From positions 1 to 49,404 of the forward strand of contig JANYFG010000102.1 of NCBI GenBank assembly GCA_025362815.1: DNA of 49,404 bases, read 5' to 3'. Positions 27,783 to 43,568 of this stretch are shown here, one piece after another (position 1 is the first letter of the stretch; every line of letters starts with the position of its first letter). The notes below the pieces were generated by a model. It was not told the origin of the DNA, did not search any database, and worked only from the letters and a program-made list of their open reading frames with translations. The position numbers and the translations under genes were made by a program. Origin of the DNA: Rhodospirillales bacterium. GTDB lineage: Bacteria; Pseudomonadota; Alphaproteobacteria; Acetobacterales; Acetobacteraceae.

Positions 27783-30203
<2,421 letters not shown>

Positions 30204-30409
30204 AATGACCTCTTGAAAGACAGTCTATCGTGGTCCGCCCGAATACACAGCGCGGACATGTGGACATAAAAGCCGAATACGTTTGGCCTCTCATGCATCG
30301 ATATAGTTCGGCACGGCGGCGCCATCCCGCAAGGACGTGGCCACTTCTTCATGACCGATTCGTGACGGCCGCTTGCCGCACGGATCGGTCAAACGGGCAG
30401 ACAGCGCGG

Positions 30410-31666
30410 TCAGGCAGTGTTTTCGGAACGCTCTTTGCCGTGGATGAACAACGGATTGGCACGACTTTCCGCCACTTCGCGGTTGATCACCACTTCCTCG
30501 ACACCGTCCAGGCCCGGCAGGTCGAACATGGTCGTCAGCAAGATCGCCTCCATGATCGATCGCAGGCCACGGGCGCCGGTCTTGCGGGCGATGGCACGCC
30601 GCGCGACAGACGCCATGGCGTCTTCGGTGAAAGTCAGCTTGACGCCTTCCATCTCGAACAGGCGGCCATACTGCTTGACCAACGCGTTCTTCGGCTTGGT
30701 CAGGATCTCGATCAGCGCCGCCTCGTCCAGATCTTCCAAGGTGGCGACCACCGGCAGGCGGCCGATGAACTCCGGGATCAGGCCGAAGCGCAGAAGATCC
30801 TCGGGCTCCACTTCCCGCAGGATGGCACCCGTCCGACGCTCGTCCGGGCTGCGGACCTCGGCGCCGTAGCCGATGCCCGACCCCTTGCCGCGGGCGGAGA
30901 TGATCTTTTCCAAACCCGAAAAGGCGCCGCCGCAGATGAACAGGATGTTGGTGGTGTCCACCTGCAGGAATTCCTGCTGCGGATGTTTGCGCCCGCCCTG
31001 CGGCGGCACAGAGGCCACGGTGCCTTCCATGATCTTCAGCAAGGCCTGCTGCACGCCCTCGCCGCTGACGTCGCGGGTGATCGAGGGGTTGTCGGACTTC
31101 CGGCTGATCTTATCGACCTCGTCGATATAGACGATGCCGCGCTGGGCGCGTTCCACGTTGTAGTCCGCCGCCTGGAGCAGCTTGAGGATGATGTTCTCAA
31201 CATCCTCACCGACATAGCCGGCCTCGGTCAGCGTGGTGGCGTCGGCCATCGTGAACGGCACATCGAGGATGCGGGCCAGCGTCTGCGCCAGAAGCGTCTT
31301 GCCGGAACCCGTCGGGCCCACGAGCATGATGTTGGATTTGGCGATCTCGACGTCGTTGTTCTTCGCACCATGCGCGAGGCGCTTGTAGTGGTTGTGCACC
31401 GCGACGCTGAGGACCTTCTTGGCGTGCGACTGGCCGATCACGTAATCGTCCAGAACCTTGCAGATCTCCTTCGGCGTCGGCACCCCATCGCGTGATTTCA
31501 CGAGATGCGTCTTATGCTCCTCACGGATGATGTCCATGCAGAGTTCGACGCATTCATCGCAGATGAAGACGGTGGGGCCGGCAATGAGCTTGCGAACCTC
31601 ATGCTGCGATTTGCCGCAGAAGGAGCAGTAGAGTGTGTTCTTCGAATCGCCGGACTTGCTGCTCAT
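30410..31666 (-). CDS. clpX: ATP-dependent Clp protease, ATP-binding subunit ClpX
   Basis: ClpX is the AAA+ unfoldase that recognises substrates such as ssrA-tagged proteins and feeds them to ClpP. The N-terminal zinc-binding domain has C14, C17, C36 and C39. Walker A GPTGSGKT is at 117-124, Walker B is in [10 protein letters not shown], the pore loop contains GYVGED, and an IGF-type ClpP-binding loop ([13 protein letters not shown]) is visible. The length of 418 residues is typical. It follows clpP by 160 bases. Confidence 0.98.
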
Positions 31667-31705
31667 GCGCGCTCCTGCCCCGGATCAACGGGGCCTAATC
31701 CCGAA

Positions 31706-31735
31706 ACTCTAGACCCCGCTTTGCAGCCGGGACAA
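31706..31735 (-). promoter_or_regulatory. candidate clpX promoter
   Basis: TTGTCC (31730-31735) and TAGAGT (31706-31711) on the minus strand are 18 bases apart and lie about 40 bases before the clpX ATG. A perfect TTGACA slightly further upstream has no good -10 partner. Confidence 0.4.
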
Positions 31736-31826
31736 GAACCGCAGGGGCCTGCATCCGCCCGATCGGCCGGCGAATGCATGTCAAATACGTCATTATTCGA
31801 CGGAAAATCCGCCGAACTCAATCAAT

Positions 31827-32471
31827 TCAGCTCTTTGCATCGGGGTCGACCGGCAACGGCCGATTTTCCACCACTTGGTCCACCAAACCGAAATTGCGGG
31901 CCTCCTCGGCCGACATGTAGGAGTCACGCTCCATCTTCCGCTCGATCGCCTCGATCGGCTGGCCGGTGTGGCGGACATAGATGCCGTTCAGCAACTCGCG
32001 GGTTTTGAGAATTTCACGCGCCTGAATCTCGATGTCCGTCGCCTGGCCTTGGGCGCCGCCGCTGGGCTGGTGCACCATGATGCGGGCATACGGCAGGGCG
32101 TAGCGCTTGCCCGGCGCGCCGGCCGCCAGCAAAAGGCTGCCGGCGGATGCCGCCTGCCCGATGCACACGGTGGAAACCGGGCTGCGGATATATTGCATCG
32201 TGTCATACATCGCGAGCGCGGCACTCACCACGCCGCCGGGGCTGTTGATGTAGAACGAGATATCCTTATTCGGATTCTCACTCTCCAGAAACAGCAGCTG
32301 CGCGCAGATCAGCGAGCTCACCTGGTCGTAGACCTGGCCCGTGAGAAAGATGATCCGCTCTTTCAGAAGCCGCGAGTCGATGTCGTAAGACCGCTCACCA
32401 CGCGCCGTCTGCTCGACCACCATCGGCACCAGATTATTGGCGTAAACCTCAACCGGATCGCGGTCCAACAT
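31827..32471 (-). CDS. clpP: ATP-dependent Clp protease, proteolytic subunit ClpP
   Basis: ClpP forms the tetradecameric serine-protease chamber used with ClpX. The 214 residues carry the catalytic triad S109 (GQAASAGS), H134 (MVHQPSGG) and D183 ([11 protein letters not shown]), with the usual spacing. The handle region [17 protein letters not shown] is intact. It lies between tig and clpX, the common gene order. Confidence 0.98.
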
Positions 32472-32626: not shown

Positions 32627-33970
32627 TCAGCCGATGGCGCCGGGCGCGTCCGGCTCCTGCGCCAGCTCCTCCGGAGTCACGGTTTTGTCAGTCACTTCAG
32701 CCAGTTCGAGCACGTAATCGACCACTTTCTCCTCAAAGATCGGCCCGCGCAGCGATTCAGCGGCCTGCGGATTCTTGCGGAAGAAATCGATGACCATCTG
32801 CTCCTGGCCCTGATAACGCTGCGCCTCGCGCGCCATGGCGCGGGTCATCTCGTCCTGGCCCACGCTGATATTGTTCACCCGGCCGATCTCGGACAGCAGC
32901 AGCCCCAGGCGCACGCGACGCTCCGCGATGGCGCGGTATTCGGCCTTCAGCGTGTCCTCGTCCTTGCCGGCATCCTCGGCGTCCGCCTCGCCCTTGGCCT
33001 TGTCGGCCTCGATGCGCTGCCAGATTTGCTCGAATTCCGAGGCCACCATGCTCTCGGGCACCGGGAAGTCCACGATCTTGGCGAGCGCGTCCAGCAGCTC
33101 GCGCTTGATGCGCAGGCGTGACAGCTGGTCGTATTCACGCTGCATCGAGCTGGAAATGGCCTTGCGCACGTCTTCGAGGCTGTCGAAACCAAGCTTGGAG
33201 GCGAGTTCGTCGTTCAGCTCGGGATTGATCGCCTTTTTCAGCGCCTTGGCCGTGATGTCGAACGTGGCGGCCTTGCCGGCGAGATCCTTGGAGCCGTATT
33301 CCGCCGGAAAGGTCACGTCGATCACGCGGGCATCGCCCGGCTTCATGCCAACCATCTGCTCGGCAAAGCCCGGGATGAAGCCGGTGCCGCCCAGTTCCAC
33401 GTCCATATCCGTGCCGGTGCCGCCTTCGAACGGCACGCCGTCCACCTTGCCGAGGAAATCGACCGTCATGACATGACCGATCTCGGCCGCCACCACATCA
33501 TCGCCCTCGAGCGTGACCAGCTCGCGCTGGCGCGTGGCGATCTCGCCCAGGGTTTTGTCGATGGCCTCAGGCGAGGCCTCCGCCTTCGGGCGGGTTAGCT
33601 TGATGCTGGCGAAATCCGGCATCGTAATTTCGGGCAGCAGCTCCACCTCGATCTTGAATTCGAGGTCCTTGCCTTCCTCGAGGGTGATGATCTCCACCTT
33701 CGGCTGGCTGGCCGAGCGCAGGCCGCGGTCCTGCATCACCTTGGTGGTGGCCTCGTTCACCGATTCTTCCAGCACTTCGGCGGTCACCGCGCCGGCGTAG
33801 CGCTTCTTGACGACGCCCATCGGCACCTTGCCGGGGCGAAAGCCCGGAATGTTCACGGTCTTGGCGACCTCGGCCAGGCGCTTCTCGCGCTTCGCATCCG
33901 TGTCGGACACCGGCAAAACAACGTTGTATGCGCGCTTCAGCCCGTCGGAGAGCGTCTCGGTGACCTGCAT
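32627..33970 (-). CDS. tig: trigger factor
   Basis: Trigger factor is the ribosome-bound chaperone with peptidyl-prolyl isomerase activity. The ATG at 33970 (MQVTETLSDGLKRAYNV) gives 447 residues. The ribosome-docking segment GFRPGKVPMGVVKKRY is near residues 45-60. The FKBP-type domain spans about 160-245 (VDFLGKVDGVPFEGGTGTD, GFIPGFAEQMVGM). The C-terminal domain is helical. It begins 43 bases after the 3' end of tRNA-Leu. Confidence 0.97.
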   Translation of the reverse strand: MQVTETLSDGLKRAYNVVLPVSDTDAKREKRLAEVAKTVNIPGFRPGKVPMGVVKKRYAGAVTAEVLEESVNEATTKVMQDRGLRSASQPKVEIITLEEGKDLEFKIEVELLPEITMPDFASIKLTRPKAEASPEAIDKTLGEIATRQRELVTLEGDDVVAAEIGHVMTVDFLGKVDGVPFEGGTGTDMDVELGGTGFIPGFAEQMVGMKPGDARVIDVTFPAEYGSKDLAGKAATFDITAKALKKAINPELNDELASKLGFDSLEDVRKAISSSMQREYDQLSRLRIKRELLDALAKIVDFPVPESMVASEFEQIWQRIEADKAKGEADAEDAGKDEDTLKAEYRAIAERRVRLGLLLSEIGRVNNISVGQDEMTRAMAREAQRYQGQEQMVIDFFRKNPQAAESLRGPIFEEKVVDYVLELAEVTDKTVTPEELAQEPDAPGAIG

Positions 33971-34169: not shown

Positions 34170-36290
34170 TCACGGCGCGCTGCGCACACCCTTGTCCGCG
34201 GCCTCGCCGATCACGCGCCTGGCGTCGTCCGGCAGCATCATGCGCCCCGCCACCAGGGCATCGGCCGCCTTGGTGACGGCGGCGACATACGCGTCCTTCG
34301 AGGGGTAACGCTCCTCGAGCGACGGGCGCGGATCGGCGGCCGCCACCCTGTCCGCCTTGGTGGCGGCGAACGGGATGAAGCTGCCGGAGAAGTTGCAGAA
34401 CCCGGCATCGAACAGATCCGGGCGGAAGCTGTTCCAGCCGGTATAGGTGCCGATCGGCGCGCCCAGATACACGTTGCGCACGCCGCCGATGTCGATCCCG
34501 TCGGCATCCACCTGCGGCACGAGAATGCCGTAGCTGGCCGTGCCCGCCACCGGCGGCTCGCGGGTGATCACGCCGGAACTGTCGCCGCCACGGTATCCGG
34601 GGCCAAAATCGAGCACATGCAGCGTGCTGATCGCGCTGGTGTAACGCGGTGCGGGGCGCTCGGTGCCGTAGTTCGTCGCCGGAATGGCCGGGAAATGCAC
34701 GCGGTCCGCCGGCACCAGCGTGCCGGCCGCGATGCTCGGCTTCATCGATGCCGGCGGCGCCTTGCCGTCCCGCACCCAGCCGATCATGTTGGAGAACGCG
34801 GCGCGCAGGGTCCAGGTATGCGGGTTGGGGTTGGACTGCTGCTGGCACAGGCCGAACGGCGCGCGGGCCGGCAACGGCAGGCCGGGCGGGGCGTGCTGGG
34901 TGCTCGCCAGAATATAGGTACGCACGCCGGCGGGCTCCTTCGCATCGCGCAGGCCGAGCGGATCGGTCAGGCCCAACGACTGGCGGCCCTCCCAGATCTC
35001 CAGCGCGGTGGCGGTGTGAAAGATCAAGGGACAGGTGCGGCTGGCCTCGCAGCGGTCGAGCAGCCCCTGGGTTCGCCCGGTCAACGGGTCGGTCTCCCGC
35101 GCATAGGTGAAGGGGAAGTCATACGCCGGATAATCGTGATCGACCTGCTGGCCCCAGGCGCGACCGGGCTGCGAGAAGCGCAGGTTCAGCGGCATCAGCC
35201 CGCCGCCGATATGCGGCATGGCGGCATCGAACACCTGTTTGCCGTCCTCGCCCTTGTTGAAGCCCAGCGCCACGAAGCTGCGGATGAAACGGCCGCTTTG
35301 GGATTGACCGAACACGATGGATTTCGTCTTGGGGCCGTGCACCACCGGGTTGGCCGTGCCTGACGCATCGCGATCGGCGTGTTGGAAGAAGGCGGCGGTG
35401 TCACGCGCGATCGCAAAGCCGATGCCCATCACCTGGGGGTCGCGCGCGCGGTAGATGACCTCGTAGAGCTTGCCCGGCTGGAAGCCCGCGGGCAGGCAGA
35501 TCTGGGTGTCGTTCGCCTTGTCGCAGGCGCCGAAACGCCAGGAGGCGGCGGGGATCACCTCGCGCGGCGCGTTCTCGCGGGCGCGGACGGTGAGGGTGGG
35601 AGCGAAACCGTCCGGCAGCGGCTTGGTGTTGTCGGTGGCCACGGTGGGATAGGCGGCATGGGTCATGCCGGTGAACCAGCCGGACGACAGGTTGAGCGTG
35701 GTGGTGGCAGCCGAGGTGGTCAGCTCGCTGCGGACCACGCCCGTGACCGGCGAGCCGTCTCGGTTGCGGGCCACGGGAAGGGTGGGGCCCATCCGCCCGT
35801 CGCCCGGCAGGATGTCGCCCTGCCAGCCGAACCAGATCATGGTGGTGCCGAGCTTTTGCAGCCAGCCGTCGCCGGCGCTTTCAAGGTTGTTCACCTGGGC
35901 CTGGGTGCCGGTGATGTCCGCGTTGAAAAGGGCATTCAGTCGTTTGCTGCCGCGATTGACCACGTCGAAAAACAGGATGTTGTTGCTCTTCGCGGGGTTG
36001 GCGGGGCGCGCGATCTCGATTTGGGTGGTGTATTCCACCATGCCACGGGCGTTGCGCGGCGCCAGGCCGAGGTCCTGTATCACGGCGTTGGCGGGCGTGC
36101 CGGGGTCGAGCTCCCCATGCGCGCGGGCCACGACGCGTTCGTAGGCCCCCGTGTCGCCGAATGCGGCGCCGCCATAGGCCGGCTCGGTGCGCAGGATTTC
36201 GAGGCGCACAATCCGGGCGTCCGCCGGCAGGATCGGCGAGAGGGCAGCCAGCGCGGTGGCGGCGAGCGCCAGGGTTCGAATGTTCAGCAT
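34170..36290 (-). CDS. secreted alpha/beta hydrolase domain-containing protein (Abhydrolase_10-like)
   Basis: This is a 706-residue protein starting at the ATG at 36290 (MLNIRTLALAATALAALSP), with a clear signal peptide probably cleaved after ADA near residue 27. The frame is open further upstream, but that part is arginine-rich and non-coding in character. The likely nucleophile elbow is FGQSQSGRFIR (GxSxSG) in the middle of the protein. The alternating Tyr/Pro/Gly-rich sequence and length fit a family of large periplasmic alpha/beta hydrolases with no defined substrate. It stands alone, between tRNA-Leu and the E1-like gene, 116 bases from the latter. It may be an esterase or lactonase; function is not established. 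Confidence 0.8.
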   Translation of the reverse strand: MLNIRTLALAATALAALSPILPADARIVRLEILRTEPAYGGAAFGDTGAYERVVARAHGELDPGTPANAVIQDLGLAPRNARGMVEYTTQIEIARPANPAKSNNILFFDVVNRGSKRLNALFNADITGTQAQVNNLESAGDGWLQKLGTTMIWFGWQGDILPGDGRMGPTLPVARNRDGSPVTGVVRSELTTSAATTTLNLSSGWFTGMTHAAYPTVATDNTKPLPDGFAPTLTVRARENAPREVIPAASWRFGACDKANDTQICLPAGFQPGKLYEVIYRARDPQVMGIGFAIARDTAAFFQHADRDASGTANPVVHGPKTKSIVFGQSQSGRFIRSFVALGFNKGEDGKQVFDAAMPHIGGGLMPLNLRFSQPGRAWGQQVDHDYPAYDFPFTYARETDPLTGRTQGLLDRCEASRTCPLIFHTATALEIWEGRQSLGLTDPLGLRDAKEPAGVRTYILASTQHAPPGLPLPARAPFGLCQQQSNPNPHTWTLRAAFSNMIGWVRDGKAPPASMKPSIAAGTLVPADRVHFPAIPATNYGTERPAPRYTSAISTLHVLDFGPGYRGGDSSGVITREPPVAGTASYGILVPQVDADGIDIGGVRNVYLGAPIGTYTGWNSFRPDLFDAGFCNFSGSFIPFAATKADRVAAADPRPSLEERYPSKDAYVAAVTKAADALVAGRMMLPDDARRVIGEAADKGVRSAP

Positions 36291-36406: not shown

Positions 36407-38797
36407 TTAACCCAGCAGAGCCTGGGCGCACGCGTCCAGGATGGCGGACACGTCCAGCCCGTATTCTCGATACAGATCCGGGAGGTCTCCGGCCTGGCCG
36501 AAATGATCGGGGCCAAGAGGCACCACGCGCTGGCCGCGCACCGCCCCCAGCCAGGCATGGGCGGCGGGGTGGCCGTCCAGCACCGTCACGAGCGCGGCAC
36601 CGGGGGCAAGCGGCGCCAGAATGGTTTCGATATGGCACGTCGCCGCCCGGTTTCCGGCGCGGCGGGCGCGGGCGGCGGCAAGCCAGCCGGCGTGCAGGCG
36701 GTCCGGACTGGTGATGGCGAGCAGGCCGGCGCCGGGTTCTTCCGTGATGAGCTCGTCGAACGCCTCGAACACCTCGGGCGCGATCGGGCCTTGGTAGGCC
36801 ATCGCGATACGCGCACCGGGAGCGGGTTTCACCTGCCAGTGGGCGCCGGCGATCACGGAAGCGGGGTTGAGCGTGCGCACCGGCTGGGCGATCTGGCGTG
36901 TGGACAGGCGCAGCCAGACCGCGGAGCCATCGGGCTGCTGCATGTGGTGAAAGGCGTGGCGCAGCAGGATGGCGAGCTCATCCACATGCGTGGGCTCGTA
37001 GCTCGCGAGCCGGTCCGCCGCCATGCCGATCAGCGGCGTGTTGATCGACTGGTGCTGACCGCCTTCGGGCGCCAGTGTGATGCCCGAAGGCGTGGAAACG
37101 AGCAGAAACCGGGCGTCCTGGTAGCAAGCATAGATCAGCGCATCGAGGCCGCGATTGACGAACGGATCATACACGGTGCCGATCGGCAGCAGCCGCGCGC
37201 CGTGCAGCGCATGCGACAGGCCGGCGGCGCCGAGCAGCAGAAACAGGTTCTGTTCGGCGATGCCGAGCTCGATGTGCTGTCCGCTGGGGGTCATGCCCCA
37301 ACGCTGGGCGGAGGCGAGCTTGGCGTCGCGAAACACGTCGTTGCGGGTGTGCCGGTCGAACACGCCGCGGCGGTTCACCCAGGGGCCGAGATTGGTGGAG
37401 ACCGTCACATCGGGGCTGGTGGTCATGATCCGGGCGGCGAGGTCTTTGCAGGCGCCCTGCCCTCGCCCGATCTCGGCCAGGATCTCGCCGAAACCGCCTT
37501 GGGTCGCCATCTTCCGGCCGGCCGAATCCGGGGCCGGCAGCAGGTCGGGCACATGGATCAGCGGCGATGACAGCGCCCGGCCCTGCGGTGTCAGCGTTTC
37601 GGCGAACGGCCGGCTGGCGACGAAGGCGGCCAGTTCCTCGGGCGTGGCGTCCAGCCCCTCGAACAGGTCGAACTCGTGGCCGGGGCGAATGCCCATCTGC
37701 TCGCGAAAAAGCGCCATCTGCTCCTTCGTCATCAGGCCGGAATGGTTGTCCTTGTGGCCGGCGAACGGCAGGCCCATGCCCTTGATGGTGTAGGCGATGA
37801 AGCAGGTCGGCTGGTCGCCGGCCGCGTCGGCGAGGAGAAGCTGCTCGATGATGCTCTCGATGTCGTGGCCGCCGAGATTCATCATGAGTTCGGCGAGTTC
37901 GAGATCCGTCATCGGGTCGATGATGGCGCGCACGCCTTCCTCGCGGCCAAGATCGGTGAGCAGGGTCTGGCGCCAGGCCGCACCGCCCTGGAAGGTCAGC
38001 GCGGAATAAAGGCTGTTCGGGCAGTCGTCGATCCAGCGGCGCAATGCCTCGCCGCCGCGGCGCTGGAAGACGGCTTCCAGCTTGCGGCCATATTTCAGCG
38101 TGACGACGTTCCAGCCCATGTCGCGGAACAGGCCTTCGATGCGCCCGAACAGACGGTCCGGCACCACGCTGTCCAGGCTTTGGCGGTTGTAGTCGATGAT
38201 CCACCAGACATTGCGGACATCGTGCTTCCAGCCTTCGAGCAGCGCCTCGTAGATGTTGCCCTCGTCGAGCTCGGCATCGCCCGCGATGGCGATATGGCGC
38301 CCGGCCGGGATGTCGTCGCGCCCGAGCCCGTGCAGGCGGACATAATCGGAGATCAACGCCGAAAAGCTGGTCAGCGCCACGCCGAGACCCACCGAGCCGG
38401 TGGAGAAATCGACCTCCGCGCCGTCCTTCACCCGGCTGGGATAAGGCTGCACGCCGCCGAACTGGCGCAGGCCGGCCATCTTTTCCGGTGTCTGCCTGCC
38501 ATAGAGCAGGTTCATGGCGTGAAACACCGGCCCCGCATGCGGCTTCACCGCCACCCGGTCCTGCGGCCGCAGCACCTCGAAATACAGCGCCGTCATGATC
38601 GAGATCACCGAGGCGCAGGACGCCTGATGGCCCCCCACCTTCAGCCCGTCCCGGTTGGGGCGGATGTGGTTGGCATTGTGGATCATCCACGCCGAGAGCC
38701 ACAGCAGCTTGCGCTCAATCTGATGCAGAAGTGCCACGCGTCGCGCGTCGAGGCGGGTGGAAGGCGGGTTCACAACGGGGGCGTCCATTCCGTTCAC
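36407..38797 (-). CDS. homodimeric 2-oxoacid dehydrogenase E1-like protein (AceE/MdeB/transketolase superfamily)
   Basis: This is a 796-residue thiamine-diphosphate enzyme. The TPP/Mg2+ motif begins GDAELDEGN at residues 173-181 and ends IDYNRQ at 201-206, with the AceE-like preceding part GVQPYPSRVKDGAEVDFSTGSVGLGVA and IRPNRDGLKVGGHQAS. The pyrimidine-binding half contains IELGIAEQNLFLLLGAAGL and LAPEGGQHQSINTP. This pattern fits homodimeric pyruvate dehydrogenase E1 (AceE), and in particular the shorter MdeB-like members, better than true transketolase. No E2 or E3 gene is nearby. It overlaps the malonyl-CoA decarboxylase gene by ATGA, so the two are co-translated. The substrate is unknown; pyruvate or 2-oxobutyrate are guesses. 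Confidence 0.85.
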   Translation of the reverse strand: MNGMDAPVVNPPSTRLDARRVALLHQIERKLLWLSAWMIHNANHIRPNRDGLKVGGHQASCASVISIMTALYFEVLRPQDRVAVKPHAGPVFHAMNLLYGRQTPEKMAGLRQFGGVQPYPSRVKDGAEVDFSTGSVGLGVALTSFSALISDYVRLHGLGRDDIPAGRHIAIAGDAELDEGNIYEALLEGWKHDVRNVWWIIDYNRQSLDSVVPDRLFGRIEGLFRDMGWNVVTLKYGRKLEAVFQRRGGEALRRWIDDCPNSLYSALTFQGGAAWRQTLLTDLGREEGVRAIIDPMTDLELAELMMNLGGHDIESIIEQLLLADAAGDQPTCFIAYTIKGMGLPFAGHKDNHSGLMTKEQMALFREQMGIRPGHEFDLFEGLDATPEELAAFVASRPFAETLTPQGRALSSPLIHVPDLLPAPDSAGRKMATQGGFGEILAEIGRGQGACKDLAARIMTTSPDVTVSTNLGPWVNRRGVFDRHTRNDVFRDAKLASAQRWGMTPSGQHIELGIAEQNLFLLLGAAGLSHALHGARLLPIGTVYDPFVNRGLDALIYACYQDARFLLVSTPSGITLAPEGGQHQSINTPLIGMAADRLASYEPTHVDELAILLRHAFHHMQQPDGSAVWLRLSTRQIAQPVRTLNPASVIAGAHWQVKPAPGARIAMAYQGPIAPEVFEAFDELITEEPGAGLLAITSPDRLHAGWLAAARARRAGNRAATCHIETILAPLAPGAALVTVLDGHPAAHAWLGAVRGQRVVPLGPDHFGQAGDLPDLYREYGLDVSAILDACAQALLG

Positions 38798-40260
38798 GCC
38801 CGGCCGCGCGCGAGTTTGCGCACCATGGCGGAGGCCTGGCGCTTGCCCTCCCCGGCATATTCCTCGTGGTTGCTCTCGATCTTGTCGGGGGCATAGAGGT
38901 AGTTGACCATCAGGGCCGCACTCTCCTTGACGCCTTTTTCCGACGTATCGGCCAGGGCGATGATGCGCTCGACGCGGGCGCCGTTGGACAGGTGGAAATG
39001 CGCCACCGGGTCGGCCGCCCGTTTGCCGTTCGATTCAGCCAGCAGATAGCGGGCGCCAAGCCGCACGAGGATCGGCTCCAGCGGTTTCGCCACGGCCGCA
39101 TCCCGCACCCAGTGGCGGCGCGACAGCAGTGCTGCAAGTGCGGCGGCGCCGGACTCCGCGGGCTCCATCGCCAGCAGCGCCTTGGTTTCGTCCTCGGCGA
39201 GCAAGGTGGTGTCATCCTCGCGGATCTGCTTGTCGAGCCAGCGACGGAAGCCGGGAATGGGGCTGAGCGTGGCAAAGGTCTTGATGTTCGCAAACTCGGC
39301 CGACAACTCCACCACCACGCGCTTGATGAGAAAGTTGCCGAAGCTGATGCCGGCCAGGCCGCGCTGGCAGTTGCTGATGGAATAAAAGATGGCGGCATCC
39401 GCCTCCTTCGGGTTCTGCACCGGCGCCTTCTGGTCGAGCAGGCGCTGCACGCTGGACGCCAGACCCTGCACCAGGGCCACCTCCACGAAGATCAGTGGCT
39501 CGTCCGGCATGCGGGGATGGAAGAACGCGTAACAGCGGCGATCGCTGTCCAGACGGTTCTTCAGGTCCCGCCAGGAGCGGATTTGGTGCACCGCCTCGTA
39601 GCCCACGAGTTTTTCGAGCAGGGCGGCCGGGCTGGTCCAGTCGATGCGCTTGAGTTCGAGGAAGCCGACATCGAACCAGTTGGCCAGCAGATTGCGCATG
39701 TCGGCTTCCAGCGCCGTCAGATGCGGGTCGCCTTTCATGATGCCGAGCAGGGTGGCCCGCAGCTCCACGATGAACTTCATGCCGTCGGGGATGGTGGTGA
39801 ACTGGGTCAGCAACCGCACCCGCGGCGGCTCCAGCGCCCGGCGCAGGGCGGATTTGGCGGCCGCGCTCTGGGCCTCGTCCCGTGCGGCCTGCAGCTTGGC
39901 GTAGGCCGCGGCGATCGCCGTTGCATCGGAATCGAAATCCGACAGTGTGCGCAGGAAGGCGCGCTGGCCGGCCTGGTCCAGCGAGGCATAGGTTTCAGCG
40001 AGTTTGGCGGCGCGGTTGCGGGCCGACACCTCTCCACCGCGGCCGGACAGGCAGGCGCGGATCTGCGCCTCCACCCCGTCATCCTCCGTGCTGGACACGC
40101 TGGACGCCATGTCCCGCCATACGCCGGTGATCCGGCGCAGCGCGCGGTCGAACAGGCCGGGGCCCGCGGGCGCGGACGGCACCCCCAGCGACGCCGACGC
40201 CACCAGCGACGCCGGCGGCACCATGATCAGATCGGTTCCCGGGGTCGCCGTCTCGCTCAT
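38794..40260 (-). CDS. matA: malonyl-CoA decarboxylase
   Basis: The enzyme converts malonyl-CoA to acetyl-CoA and CO2. The start ATG at 40260 (MSETATPGTDLIM) gives 488 residues, close to bacterial MatA proteins. The N-terminal half is helical. The acyltransferase-like C-terminal half has family motifs AFFHPRMPDEPLIFVEVAL, SISNCQRGLAGISFGN, FATLSPIPGFRRWL and HFHLSNGARVERI, which include the expected catalytic Ser and His. There is no malonyl-CoA synthetase or malonate transporter beside it; instead its stop overlaps the start of the E1-like gene. It is divergent from the ParA-like gene, 130 bases away. Confidence 0.92.
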   Translation of the reverse strand: MSETATPGTDLIMVPPASLVASASLGVPSAPAGPGLFDRALRRITGVWRDMASSVSSTEDDGVEAQIRACLSGRGGEVSARNRAAKLAETYASLDQAGQRAFLRTLSDFDSDATAIAAAYAKLQAARDEAQSAAAKSALRRALEPPRVRLLTQFTTIPDGMKFIVELRATLLGIMKGDPHLTALEADMRNLLANWFDVGFLELKRIDWTSPAALLEKLVGYEAVHQIRSWRDLKNRLDSDRRCYAFFHPRMPDEPLIFVEVALVQGLASSVQRLLDQKAPVQNPKEADAAIFYSISNCQRGLAGISFGNFLIKRVVVELSAEFANIKTFATLSPIPGFRRWLDKQIREDDTTLLAEDETKALLAMEPAESGAAALAALLSRRHWVRDAAVAKPLEPILVRLGARYLLAESNGKRAADPVAHFHLSNGARVERIIALADTSEKGVKESAALMVNYLYAPDKIESNHEEYAGEGKRQASAMVRKLARGRA

Positions 40261-40390: not shown

Positions 40391-41023
40391 ATGCCATTCG
40401 TGATCACGGTCGCCCAGCAAAAAGGCGGGGCCGGCAAAACAACGCTGGCGGCGAACCTGGCGGCGGGGTGGGCGTCCGGCGGGGCGCGCGTGGCGCTGTT
40501 GGATATCGACCCGCAGCGCAGCCTGTCGCGCTGGCACGCCCTTCGCGCGGGAAACGCCAAGGCCACCGGCGCCATTCATCTGAGCGAGGTGGCCGGATGG
40601 CGGCTGGCGGCCGAGCTCGACCGGCTGCGCAAAAATCACGACATCGTGATCATCGACAGTCCGCCGCAGATCGACACCGATGCGCGCCTCGCCATTCGCA
40701 GCGCCGATCTGGTGTTGATCCCGATCCAGCCCAGCCTGCCGGATCTGTGGGCGGCGGAGGGCACCTTGACCCTCGCCAAGGCGGAAAAGCGCACGGTGCG
40801 CGTGGTGCTCAACCGCGCCCCGGCATCCGGCGCGCTGCTGGGCCAGGTGACGACCGAGATCGCGGCGCGGGGCGTGGTGCAGCTTCAGTCCCGGCTCGGG
40901 AATCGCGTGGGTTTCGCCACCGCCTTCGCGCTGGGGCTTGGCGTTAGCGAAACGGCACCGAAATCAGTGGCGGCCATCGAATTGATGACGCTGCTCGCCG
41001 AGATCGACGCCGGCCGAGGCTGA
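40391..41023 (+). CDS. ParA-family P-loop ATPase, orphan
   Basis: This is a 210-residue protein from the ATG at 40391, preceded by AGGGGG. It has a deviant Walker A KGGAGKTT at residues 11-18, ALLDIDPQRSLSRW (A'), VIIDSPPQIDTDAR (Walker B) and the segment VLIPIQPSLPDLWA, all typical of ParA-like proteins, which move or position cargo by ATP-dependent dimerisation. No parB or parS-like sequence is visible, so a role in plasmid or chromosome segregation is not supported. It ends 16 bases before the binding protein of an ABC importer, close enough for one transcript. The frame open upstream to 40004 overlaps the decarboxylase gene in antisense and is not real. Confidence 0.88.
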   Translation: MPFVITVAQQKGGAGKTTLAANLAAGWASGGARVALLDIDPQRSLSRWHALRAGNAKATGAIHLSEVAGWRLAAELDRLRKNHDIVIIDSPPQIDTDARLAIRSADLVLIPIQPSLPDLWAAEGTLTLAKAEKRTVRVVLNRAPASGALLGQVTTEIAARGVVQLQSRLGNRVGFATAFALGLGVSETAPKSVAAIELMTLLAEIDAGRG

Positions 41024-41039: not shown

Positions 41040-42038
41040 ATGCTGAAACATCTGATGGTTCTGGCGTGGCTGGTGATGGCTGGCGTGCCCGGGTACGCGC
41101 AGCCTCTGACGAAAGTCACCTTCGGCACTGATTGGCTGGCCGAGGCGGAGCATGGCGGCTTCTACGAGGCGCTGGCGATGGGCCTGTATAAGCAGCGCGG
41201 GCTGGACGTGACCATCAAGATGGGCGGCCCGCAGACCAACGGCAACGCGGCCATCGCCACCGGGCAGGTGGATTTCATGCTGTCCTCCGGCAGTTTCGCA
41301 GCACTGAGCATGGTGGAGCAGTCGATCCCCGTGATAGCCGTGGCGGCGTTCTTCCAAAAAGACCCGCAGGTGATGATCACCCATCCCGGCATGGGGTTGG
41401 ACACGATGGCCCAGCTGAAAGGCCATCCCATCATGATCTCGGCCGGCGCGCGTTCCGGCCTGTGGTTGTTCCTCAAGGCGAAGTTTGGCTACACCGACGA
41501 CCAGATCCGCCCCTACAACTTCTCCATGGCGCCGTTCCTGCTGGACAAGAATTTGGTCATGGAGGGATTCCTGTCATCGGAGCCGTTCCAGATCGAGAAG
41601 CAGGCCGGGTTCAAACCGGTGGTGAACCTGCTGGCGGATAACGGGTTCGACAATTATTCCGACGTGATCCTGACCCAGACCAAGACCGTGCAGAACCGGC
41701 CCGAGATCGTGCGGGCCTTCGTGGAGGCGTCGGCGGAGGGCTGGTATCATTACATGTACGGCGATCCCGCGCCGGGCAATGCGCTGATCCGCGCGGCCAA
41801 CAAGGACATGACGCAGGAGATCATCGACAACGGCATCAAGGTGATGCGCGAACACGGGATCGTTGATTCCGGCGACAGCCTCACGCTGGGGATCGGCGCG
41901 ATGAGCGAGGCGCGCTGGGCGCATTTCCTCGACACGATGACGCAGGCGGGGGTCTATCCGAAAGGCCTGGATGCCAGGCGGGCCTACACGCTGGAGTTCG
42001 TGAACAAGGGCGTGGGAATGGCGCTCCGCCCGAAGTGA
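41040..42038 (+). CDS. ABC transporter substrate-binding protein (NMT1/THI5-like)
   Basis: This is a 332-residue periplasmic binding protein. A signal peptide runs to about residue 20 (MVLAWLVMAGVPGYA then QPL), with no lipobox. The NMT1/THI5 pattern is clear: VTFGTDWLAEAEHGGFYEALAMGLYKQRGLDV followed by GNAAIATGQVDFMLSSG. Relatives bind pyrimidine thiamin precursors, sulfonates, nitrate or riboflavin; the ligand cannot be read here. A strong GGGGAGG ribosome-binding site precedes the ATG. It overlaps the ATPase gene as GTGA. No TPP riboswitch fits in the 16-base gap upstream. Confidence 0.9.
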   Translation: MLKHLMVLAWLVMAGVPGYAQPLTKVTFGTDWLAEAEHGGFYEALAMGLYKQRGLDVTIKMGGPQTNGNAAIATGQVDFMLSSGSFAALSMVEQSIPVIAVAAFFQKDPQVMITHPGMGLDTMAQLKGHPIMISAGARSGLWLFLKAKFGYTDDQIRPYNFSMAPFLLDKNLVMEGFLSSEPFQIEKQAGFKPVVNLLADNGFDNYSDVILTQTKTVQNRPEIVRAFVEASAEGWYHYMYGDPAPGNALIRAANKDMTQEIIDNGIKVMREHGIVDSGDSLTLGIGAMSEARWAHFLDTMTQAGVYPKGLDARRAYTLEFVNKGVGMALRPK

Positions 42039-42790
42039 GCGTGAAGCTGGTTGCCCTGCGCCACGTTGCAAAGCGCTTCGACAACGGCACCGAGGCGCTG
42101 CGGGACCTGTCCTTCGAGATCTCGCGGGGCTCGTTCACCAGCCTGCTCGGCCCGTCCGGCTGCGGCAAATCCACCGCGTTGCGGCTCATCGCGGGCCTGG
42201 CGTCGGCGAGTGCGGGACAGGTGGAGATCAGCGACACACGGGGGTTGAGCTTCGTGTTCCAGGAGCCGGCGCTGATGCCGTGGCGCAGCGTGGCCGGCAA
42301 CGTGGCCCTTCCCCTGACATTGCAGGGCGTGCCGAAGGCGGAGATCGCATCGCGCGTGACCGCGGTTCTCGCCCAGGTCGGGCTGGCGGGATTTGCCCGC
42401 GCCTATCCGCGCCAACTCTCCGGCGGGATGAAGATGCGCGTCTCCATCGCCCGCGCCTTGGTGACGCGCCCGCTGCTGCTGCTGATGGACGAACCGTTCG
42501 CCGCGCTGGACGAGATCACCCGCGCCAAATTGAACGACGATCTTCTGGCACTGCACGCGGCCGAGCGGCTGACCATCGTTTTCGTGACGCATAGTGTGTA
42601 TGAAAGCGTGTTCCTGTCCGACCGCATCCTGGTGATGGCCCCCCGCCCGGGCCGCGTCGTGGCCGATATCGCGGTCGAGGCGCCCGCTGTACGGGATGAG
42701 ATCTTTCGCACCGGAGAGCTCTACAACCGCCAGGCCCGCGCGGTCTCCCAGGCGTTGCGCGAGGCCATGGGTGAGGCCGATGCGCGCTGA
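42035..42790 (+). CDS. ABC transporter ATP-binding protein (TauB/SsuB type)
   Basis: This is the cytoplasmic ATPase of the importer, 251 residues from a GTG at 42035 that overlaps the previous stop. It contains Walker A GPSGCGKST, the Q-loop FVFQEPALMPWRSV, the signature LSGGMKMRVSIARAL, Walker B LLLLMDEPFAALDE and the switch histidine in VFVTHSVYESVF. The family is the TauB/SsuB/NrtD group that works with NMT1-type binding proteins. Confidence 0.93.
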   Translation: MSVKLVALRHVAKRFDNGTEALRDLSFEISRGSFTSLLGPSGCGKSTALRLIAGLASASAGQVEISDTRGLSFVFQEPALMPWRSVAGNVALPLTLQGVPKAEIASRVTAVLAQVGLAGFARAYPRQLSGGMKMRVSIARALVTRPLLLLMDEPFAALDEITRAKLNDDLLALHAAERLTIVFVTHSVYESVFLSDRILVMAPRPGRVVADIAVEAPAVRDEIFRTGELYNRQARAVSQALREAMGEADAR

Positions 42791-43568
42791 CCGCCTCTGG
42801 CACGTGGCGCTCCCCCTGGTGGTGGGCCTGGTCTTTCTCGCCGGCTGGGAAACGCTGGTGCGCGTGGCCGAAATCCCCGTGTATGTGCTGCCTGGCCCGC
42901 TGCGCATCGCCACCACGCTGGTGCGCGACTGGGGCACGCTGACCGACAGCCTCGTCATCACCCTCGAAGTGACCGTGGCGGCGCTGCTGGCCGCGGTGGT
43001 GTTCGGCGGCGGACTGGCCATCCTGTTCGCGCAATCACGCTGGATCGAGGCGAGTTTGTTTCCATACGCCGTCATCCTGCAGGTGACGCCGATCGTGGCG
43101 ATCGCGCCGCTGATCCTGATCTATGTGCGCAACACCGAGGCGGCATTGCTCATCTGCGCCTGGATCGTCGCGTTCTTTCCAATCCTGTCCAACACCACGA
43201 TGGGGCTGAATTCGACCGACCCCAACTTCCTCGATCTCATGCGCCTGTATCGCGCCAACCGCTGGCAGGTGCTGTGGCATGTGCGCCTGCCGCAGGCGAT
43301 GCCGTATTTCCTGGCGGGGCTGAGGATCGCCGGCGGGCTGAGCCTGATCGGCGCCGTGGTGGCGGAATTCACGGCGGGCACGGCCACGGCTGGCACCGGA
43401 CTTGCGTATCGCATTCTGGAAAGCAGCTACCGGCTGGACATTCCGCGCATGTATGCGGCGCTGGTGCTGCTGTCGGGGTCCGGCGTGCTGATCTTCGCGG
43501 GACTGTCCTTGCTGTCATGGCTGGTGTTGCGGCGTTGGCATGAGAGTTACGCGAGGCGCGATATTTGA
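42780..43568 (+). CDS. ABC transporter permease (TauC/SsuC type)
   Basis: This is an inner-membrane permease of 262 residues with about six helices. The ATG at 42780 (MRADRLWHVALPLVV) overlaps the ATPase gene by 11 bases; the frame open further upstream is not needed. The cytoplasmic EAA-like loop is around ANRWQVLWHVRLPQAMPYFLAGLRIAGGLSLIGAVVAEF. It completes a three-gene importer. It ends 15 bases from the convergent SDR gene, with no clear terminator between them. Confidence 0.92.
   Translation: MRADRLWHVALPLVVGLVFLAGWETLVRVAEIPVYVLPGPLRIATTLVRDWGTLTDSLVITLEVTVAALLAAVVFGGGLAILFAQSRWIEASLFPYAVILQVTPIVAIAPLILIYVRNTEAALLICAWIVAFFPILSNTTMGLNSTDPNFLDLMRLYRANRWQVLWHVRLPQAMPYFLAGLRIAGGLSLIGAVVAEFTAGTATAGTGLAYRILESSYRLDIPRMYAALVLLSGSGVLIFAGLSLLSWLVLRRWHESYARRDI

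Follow-up and report, generated by a model that had tools for sequence, protein, structure and literature searches.

Malonyl-CoA decarboxylase and an AceE-like enzyme as probable neighbours by history in an old housekeeping block of Acetobacteraceae

The window analysed here is the whole of a 49,404-nucleotide stretch (contig JANYFG010000102.1, forward strand) from a Rhodospirillales bacterium of the family Acetobacteraceae, whose assembly (GCA_025362815.1) comprises 3.05 Mb in 126 contigs and is 75.8% complete. A preliminary description had placed two overlapping genes between 36407 and 40260, and both are confirmed as full-length and on the same strand. The upstream gene encodes a malonyl-CoA decarboxylase (MCD) and the downstream gene a protein resembling AceE, the homodimeric E1 component of pyruvate dehydrogenase (PDH), which depends on thiamine diphosphate (ThDP) and is designated E1-like in what follows:

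38794-40260, minus strand: malonyl-CoA decarboxylase, 488 aa, recognized by Pfam PF05292 and PF17408 and by PDB sequence matches
36407-38797, minus strand: AceE-like ThDP-dependent enzyme (E1-like), read as a probable 2-oxoacid decarboxylase from Pfam/NCBIfam matches, an AlphaFold2 model and active-site residues
38794-38797, minus strand: GTGA stop/start overlap of the two genes, read from the sequence (tcac on the plus strand)

The overlap is thus GTGA, and the ATGA given earlier was wrong. Initiation at the GTG at 38797 would yield an E1-like protein of 796 aa, and initiation at an alternative in-frame ATG at 38788, nine bases downstream, one of 793 aa with no overlap at all. Inspection of the sequence ahead of the GTG revealed no clear Shine-Dalgarno motif, and the corresponding open reading frames (ORFs) are spaced by 3 to 133 bases in four loci of congeners (L034-L037). 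The proposal that the two products are made in fixed proportion was not borne out by these features.

On sequence criteria the window MCD is a canonical malonyl-CoA decarboxylase. Its domains score 363.3 bits (PF05292) and 83.4 bits (PF17408), each over the cut-off, and its PDB matches include the bacterial MCDs 4ksa, 4ks9 and 4ksf and the human enzyme (4f0x/2ygw). In the alignment to 4f0x, counting places Ser333 and His423 of the window MCD opposite Ser329 and His423 of human MCD, the catalytic dyad of that enzyme in the portion of PMC3701320 consulted. No E2, E3, malonyl-CoA synthetase or malonate carrier was recognized by Pfam among 23 further ORFs of the window, one of them without any match and some shorter ORFs being left out; the earlier remark that a lipoyl transferase, malonate transporter and synthetase are lacking nearby holds for the ORFs scanned. 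MatB, sought as NF005702 over its cut-off, was found in none of 22 family genomes (the window's own, 75.8% complete, and 21 relatives), which bears out the view that this is not the usual mat operon. The same model was exceeded in three of 14 genomes outside the family (G036, G042, G049), and in G049, the sole case inspected, MatB adjoins an MCD of 48% identity. The window MCD, in our reading, likely keeps the cell's own malonyl-CoA pool in check as a housekeeping enzyme; it would convert intracellular malonyl-CoA to acetyl-CoA outside malonate uptake. Malonyl-CoA is an inhibitor of methylmalonyl-CoA mutase; a role for MCD in shielding that enzyme was considered and rejected in the family, where the mutase occurs in just five of 150 genomes.

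The E1-like protein scores distantly against the AceE models, with 158 bits for TIGR00759 (cut-off 859.9) and 142 bits for TIGR03186 (cut-off 1408). An AlphaFold2 model built from 33 aligned sequences (mean pLDDT 88.6, pTM 0.89) has Escherichia coli AceE entries as its top PDB matches (Foldseek E 2.8e-41; Z 43.5-43.6), with 731-736 residues aligned at an rmsd of 3.1 and 20% identity, and transketolases as the next fold matches, at Z about 37. Residues that we take to form the active sites of AceE and of transketolase, their choice, E. coli numbering and roles being our assumption, were followed through the 33 rows of the E1-like alignment. AceE H106, H142, Y177, D230, E235, N260, K392, E571, E636 and H640 are invariant in all 33. 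The site of transketolase R358 is variable, with Lys in four rows and Arg in none; S385 is Thr and H461 is Pro in every row, and R520 is Thr in 31 and Asn in two. Identity as a transketolase was rejected on these four replacements. Residue 8 of the E1-like protein pairs with AceE 62-64 in the model; in the sequence alignment, residues 8 and 18 are opposite AceE 56 and 73, respectively. There is no counterpart of AceE segment 1-55, which binds the PSBD of E2 according to the part of a review consulted (PMC6270654). Fold, AceE models and active-site residues together support the earlier view of the partner as an AceE/MdeB-like thiamine enzyme.

Among plasmid records, 264 resemble the E1-like protein, 171 of them over at least 80% of its length; the annotation "transketolase", carried by 28 of the 40 such records listed, looks misleading. 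A genome of the window's genus (G003) has at another locus (L064) the gene for an AceE-like protein of 897 aa that is extended at its N-terminus.

In several alphaproteobacterial families the pair belongs to a fuller order, nnr - MCD - E1-like - tig - clpP - clpX - lon, with an Lrp/AsnC gene on the opposite strand between MCD and E1-like in some; nnr, of NAD(P)HX repair, is presented as a metabolite-repair gene in excerpts of the literature. In 13 linked loci of other families, nnr stands directly before MCD in 10, tig after E1 in 11, and the opposite-strand Lrp/AsnC gene between the two in four (L151, L157, L162, L163). Lrp, nnr and tig were each sought with a single probe (tblastn, E 1e-8), which diverged copies may escape. 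In an E1 tree of 155 rows, the window's sequence falls in a clade of 74 (SH-aLRT 99), whose named members, Rhodopila and Roseomonas among them, mark it as Acetobacteraceae. A divergent Lrp gene within 1.2 kb of E1 accompanies none of these 74 rows vs 43 of the 81 others (39 without MCD and four with it). The tree is a quick one and carries long-branch warnings for the joins L030/L162 and L130/L141, on which the conclusions do not rest. The absence of Lrp throughout the window clade and the MCD-Lrp-E1 order elsewhere argue that the ancestor of this clade most likely lost the Lrp gene, an event that would have allowed MCD and E1 to close up and brought them into contact.

The association of MCD with nnr extends through most of the tree set: of the 44 loci that have a linked MCD and at least 1.5 kb of sequence upstream, 38 show nnr no more than 6 kb ahead of MCD, the remaining six being the window, three loci of the same genus (L034, L036, L037), L045 and L178. 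In the window's genus, then, nnr too is missing at the locus, leaving the order ParA, then MCD-E1. A search for nnr in the window's own genome, run without a positive control on an assembly 75.8% complete, did not find it, and nothing follows from this. No second constant partner was seen in the MCD-E1 spacers of loosely linked loci, which hold assorted genes; their ORFs, named by eye, include TetR-like, EAL-like and carotenoid-oxygenase-like examples and, in L153 and L159, pyridoxal-enzyme-like ones. Some genomes sit in both collections used here, and the tree and nnr loci are partly non-independent (L097 is identical to L181, and L075 to L179).

The neighbourhood was surveyed in genomes of the family and of the class, with sequences of at least 66% identity to the window protein counted as this E1 type and those of at least 60% as this MCD type, distances being taken between alignment ends and the window's own genome being left out of totals of 149 and 336. 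An E1-like gene was found in 101 of 150 family genomes and an MCD gene in 88; among the 149, this E1 type occurs in 91, this MCD type in 76 and both in 69. In 44 of the genomes with both, E1 has MCD upstream of it, on its own strand and at most 5 kb away; the MCD of one of these (G024) has an internal deletion, and in two others (G065, G136) a contig end truncates it. In the other 25 the genes are apart, and this MCD type is missing in 22 of the 91 genomes with this E1 type. In the class, E1 and MCD were each found in 115 of 337 genomes, own included, and the 336 others divide into 85 with both, 29 with E1 alone, 29 with MCD alone and 193 with neither. Thirteen of the 85 genomes with both, from 12 alphaproteobacterial families, show MCD upstream of E1 in the same orientation and no more than 5 kb away (G206, G217, G220, G233, G267, G278, G310, G334, G357, G369, G376, G380, G383), as do, with a limit of 6 kb, 14 of 80 named GTDB-contig loci, several of the 80 being cut by contig ends. 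The adjacency thus recurs more than by chance, and these counts exclude the earlier concern that the pair might be found only in this genome. A search of open-licence papers gave nothing to the point on the pair or on the E1 family.

The manner in which the block breaks is informative. Where family genomes carry the two genes apart, MCD has nnr as its immediate upstream neighbour in 21 of the 24 examined (the 25 less G104), the exceptions being L192, with 1.1 kb of upstream sequence only, L199 and L211. Two genomes of the window's genus (G003 and G004, at L213 and L214) have the order ParA-MCD-tig, with E1-like gone, and two loci of other families, L220 (G213) and L225 (G196), read nnr-MCD-tig, as if E1 alone had left; in G213 it lies on another contig. 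Loss of one gene thus need not entail loss of the other. The usual companion of MCD in the family is nnr, and that of E1 relatives an Lrp/AsnC regulator; this pattern weakens the case for a dedicated MCD-E1 pair. As a separate observation, locus L055 (G024:C243) holds an MCD remnant between nnr and E1-like, in which query residues 24-92 and 413-486 share one short frame, and its E1-like gene runs off the contig.

Clues to the substrate of the E1-like enzyme come from relatives with 55-59% identity to it that have telling neighbours; many others have none. On a Sulfitobacter plasmid (L032) and in a metagenome-assembled genome (L130), E1 is immediately preceded by a methionine gamma-lyase gene that stands behind an Lrp gene, and a threonine ammonia-lyase gene overlaps E1 in L139; each of these lyases yields 2-oxobutyrate. 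On a Novosphingobium plasmid (L030), E1 is directly followed by a PDH-type E2 that carries lipoyl and E3-binding domains and scores 442 bits, just below the TIGR01349 cut-off of 445. In L060 (7767-12299), the E1-like gene is succeeded by those for a phosphate acetyl/butyryltransferase (Pta) and an acetate/propionate kinase, an order that looks as if it served energy gain from acyl-CoA. Because relatives adjoin these four kinds of gene, 2-oxobutyrate is most likely the substrate. The enzyme would decarboxylate this short 2-oxoacid, arising from methionine and threonine, on ThDP, and its product would end up either as propionate or, by way of an E2 whose gene lies elsewhere, as propionyl-CoA.

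Propionyl-CoA, in turn, would enter the 2-methylcitrate cycle. PrpB of that cycle occurs in 112 of the 150 family genomes (108 above the curated cut-off), in 97 of 100 that bear E1 vs 14 of 49 that do not, relatedness and genome size being uncontrolled in this comparison. The methylmalonyl-CoA mutase family PF01642, present in five of the 150 as stated above, was not found in the window's genome at its 75.8% completeness; the rarity of this mutase and the prevalence of PrpB argue for the 2-methylcitrate route. The window's genome has two E2 loci. Two is also the usual number in the family genomes examined that have the E1-like gene, apart from G021 with three, G009 with one fragment and G007 (74% complete) with none, and in those without it, apart from G020 with one, so that carriers of the gene show no clear excess of E2 loci.

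These findings are most easily reconciled with a reading in which MCD and the E1-like gene are neighbours from one old housekeeping block, together by history and not feeding each other, the E1 substrate being most likely 2-oxobutyrate; we give this reading a probability of roughly 0.55. Several observations weigh against it. E1 and MCD co-occur strongly (85 genomes with both, 114 with each, of 336; 81 of 149 in the family), both are found in 78 of 111 PrpB-bearing family genomes (odds ratio 7.4), and 34 of the 44 linked family pairs are separated by less than 250 bases. The Fisher tests applied to co-occurrence ignore relatedness and genome size. Such co-occurrence would fit a functional tie, and it leaves room for a looser one. 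The tie of MCD to nnr is also weaker outside the family, nnr being upstream of MCD in four of the 12 loci examined there that have MCD and no E1 nearby (L219, L220, L222, L225); within the family, nnr is upstream of MCD in three of six genomes that have this MCD type and not this E1 type (L216, L217, L218, the others being L213, L214 and L215, with a seventh such genome, G121, outside the count). AceE Asn258 is aligned with Asp and Glu522 with Val in all 33 rows, in an alignment of low identity that also places AceE His407 at a gap, in a loop with invariant His348 and His352. Finally, an aldehyde dehydrogenase-cluster gene follows E1 on the same strand in all ten Bradyrhizobium loci surveyed (L112, L123, L125, L126, L127, L132, L133, L134, L136, L137; profile check on L123), which hints at an aldehyde.

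Other readings place the E1-like enzyme, or the pair as a whole, differently. It might be an additional E1 of pyruvate dehydrogenase, working in trans with the canonical PDH E2, as its AceE fold, its retention of most AceE catalytic residues, the mostly constant two E2 loci of family genomes with and without it, and the E2 gene that adjoins its Novosphingobium relative (442 bits against 445 for TIGR01349) would suggest; the segment corresponding to AceE 1-55, to which the consulted part of PMC6270654 assigns PSBD binding, is however absent, and the neighbours of relatives point to 2-oxobutyrate, so that we consider this possibility doubtful. Lack of the E2-binding N-terminus would suit a stand-alone, non-oxidative 2-oxoacid decarboxylase whose released aldehyde is oxidized by an aldehyde dehydrogenase, and the ten Bradyrhizobium loci are in line with this; yet the Pta and kinase genes of L060 and the E2 gene of L030 imply acyl-CoA, and no aldehyde dehydrogenase adjoins the window pair, which makes such an enzyme unlikely here. 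That the protein is a true transketolase, as the label on 28 of 40 listed plasmid records and the next fold matches (Z about 37) might imply, is scarcely credible, given that the sugar-phosphate residues are replaced, AceE-specific Tyr177 and Lys392 are kept, and AceE is clearly ahead at Z 43.6.

A tie between the two genes could take the form of proofreading: the E1-like enzyme makes propionyl-CoA, acetyl-CoA carboxylase mis-carboxylates some of it to methylmalonyl-CoA, a dead end without the mutase, and MCD decarboxylates this back, the operon with nnr upstream being a metabolite-repair cluster. The distribution of the mutase (five of 150 family genomes, none found in the window's own) and of PrpB (112 of 150) is consistent with this scheme, as is the position of nnr, characterized in excerpts of the literature as a metabolite-repair gene, as the commonest MCD neighbour in the family; a precedent is mammalian ECHDC1, which, in the portion of PMC6717113 consulted, removes methylmalonyl-CoA thought to arise from the action of acetyl-CoA carboxylase on propionyl-CoA. 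ECHDC1 is, however, a different protein, MCDs are without recognizable homology to methylmalonyl-CoA decarboxylase in the consulted part of PMC3701320, and the block is present in other families too; proofreading is, to our judgement, distinctly unlikely. We regard as improbable its more inclusive form, in which nnr-MCD-E1 of mutase-less Acetobacteraceae would be a single metabolite-repair and propionyl-CoA unit, the E1 needing no AceE-type docking to E2, the non-mat MCD destroying methylmalonyl-CoA together with excess malonyl-CoA, and Nnr repairing NAD(P)H. A dedicated pathway in which acetyl-CoA from MCD meets the E1 product, offered in the preliminary description as an undescribed link between malonyl-CoA and 2-oxoacid metabolism, would account for the conserved order and strand and for the co-occurrence; against it, 25 of the 69 family genomes with both genes have them separated, this MCD type is missing from 22 of the 91 with this E1 type, MCD stays with nnr in the family, and E1 relatives stay with Lrp. 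On this comparative evidence the neighbourhood is real and conserved, and the dedicated pathway is not supported and seems very improbable.

The remaining genes of the window that bear on the block are these:

40391-41023, plus strand: ParA-family ATPase, divergent from MCD (NCBIfam NF041546, 203 bits, cut-off 180)
34170-36290, minus strand: alpha/beta hydrolase (Abhydrolase_10, Pfam PF20091), between E1-like and tig in the window genome, with a probable start
32627-33970, minus strand: trigger factor (tig), first gene of the tig-clpP-clpX-lon block, from its ORF and a syntenic probe, named from sequence
31827-32471, minus strand: clpP, from its ORF, with order kept in other loci, named from sequence
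30410-31666, minus strand: clpX, on the same grounds
27783-30203, minus strand: lon, on the same grounds (block 27783-32471)

Probe matches place the ParA gene next to the MCD-E1 pair also in L034-L037, and in other loci with nnr in between. An NMT1-type ABC transporter occupies 41040-43568, between ParA and the genes for a short-chain dehydrogenase/reductase and purF, and is not there in congener L036. The other window genes are likewise of housekeeping type, namely those for DNA polymerase III alpha, an FtsX/MacB-type permease, a class II tRNA synthetase, RNase J, pantothenate kinase, complex I subunits, the short-chain dehydrogenase/reductase, the transporter and a RadA-like ATPase, with purF and a colicin-V-production-type gene; lon, clpX, clpP, tig, purF and RadA are named from sequence only. 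Two contigs filed under Nitrosovibrio and Acidobacteria metagenome-assembled genomes (L066, L089) carry E1-like genes of the Acetobacteraceae clade (76-82% identity) and are probably misbinned.

From a broader perspective, the series of gene orders illustrates how two genes can come to look like an operon once a regulator between them has gone. The analysis further hints at two lineages of bacterial MCD, of which one was met next to MatB and the other mostly next to NAD(P)HX repair. A widespread alphaproteobacterial family labelled "transketolase" in many records is better read as AceE-like 2-oxoacid decarboxylases, probably for 2-oxobutyrate; this family is under-described and is without the known E2-docking segment.

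The nearest known systems are MatA, transketolase, AceE and MdeB. With MatA of the mat operon the window MCD shares its family (PF05292/PF17408) and the catalytic Ser and His; the partner of MatA is MatB, whereas the window MCD has none beside it among the ORFs scanned. With transketolase the E1-like protein has the overall fold and the cofactor site in common, but the sugar-phosphate residues are not kept. With E. coli AceE the likeness embraces the fold over nearly the whole chain, the ThDP site and most catalytic residues, but the E1-like protein is about 90 residues shorter, is without the E2-binding N-terminus, has Val aligned with Glu522 and scores far below the TIGR00759 cut-off. The mde operon of Pseudomonas putida, which we take to run mdeR (Lrp) - mdeA (methionine gamma-lyase) - mdeB (E1-like), with an MdeB of about 880 aa, is likened here by gene context, not by sequence. 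No Lrp or methionine gamma-lyase gene adjoins the window locus, but L032 and L130, with Lrp, methionine gamma-lyase and an E1-like gene together, have a make-up like that of mde.

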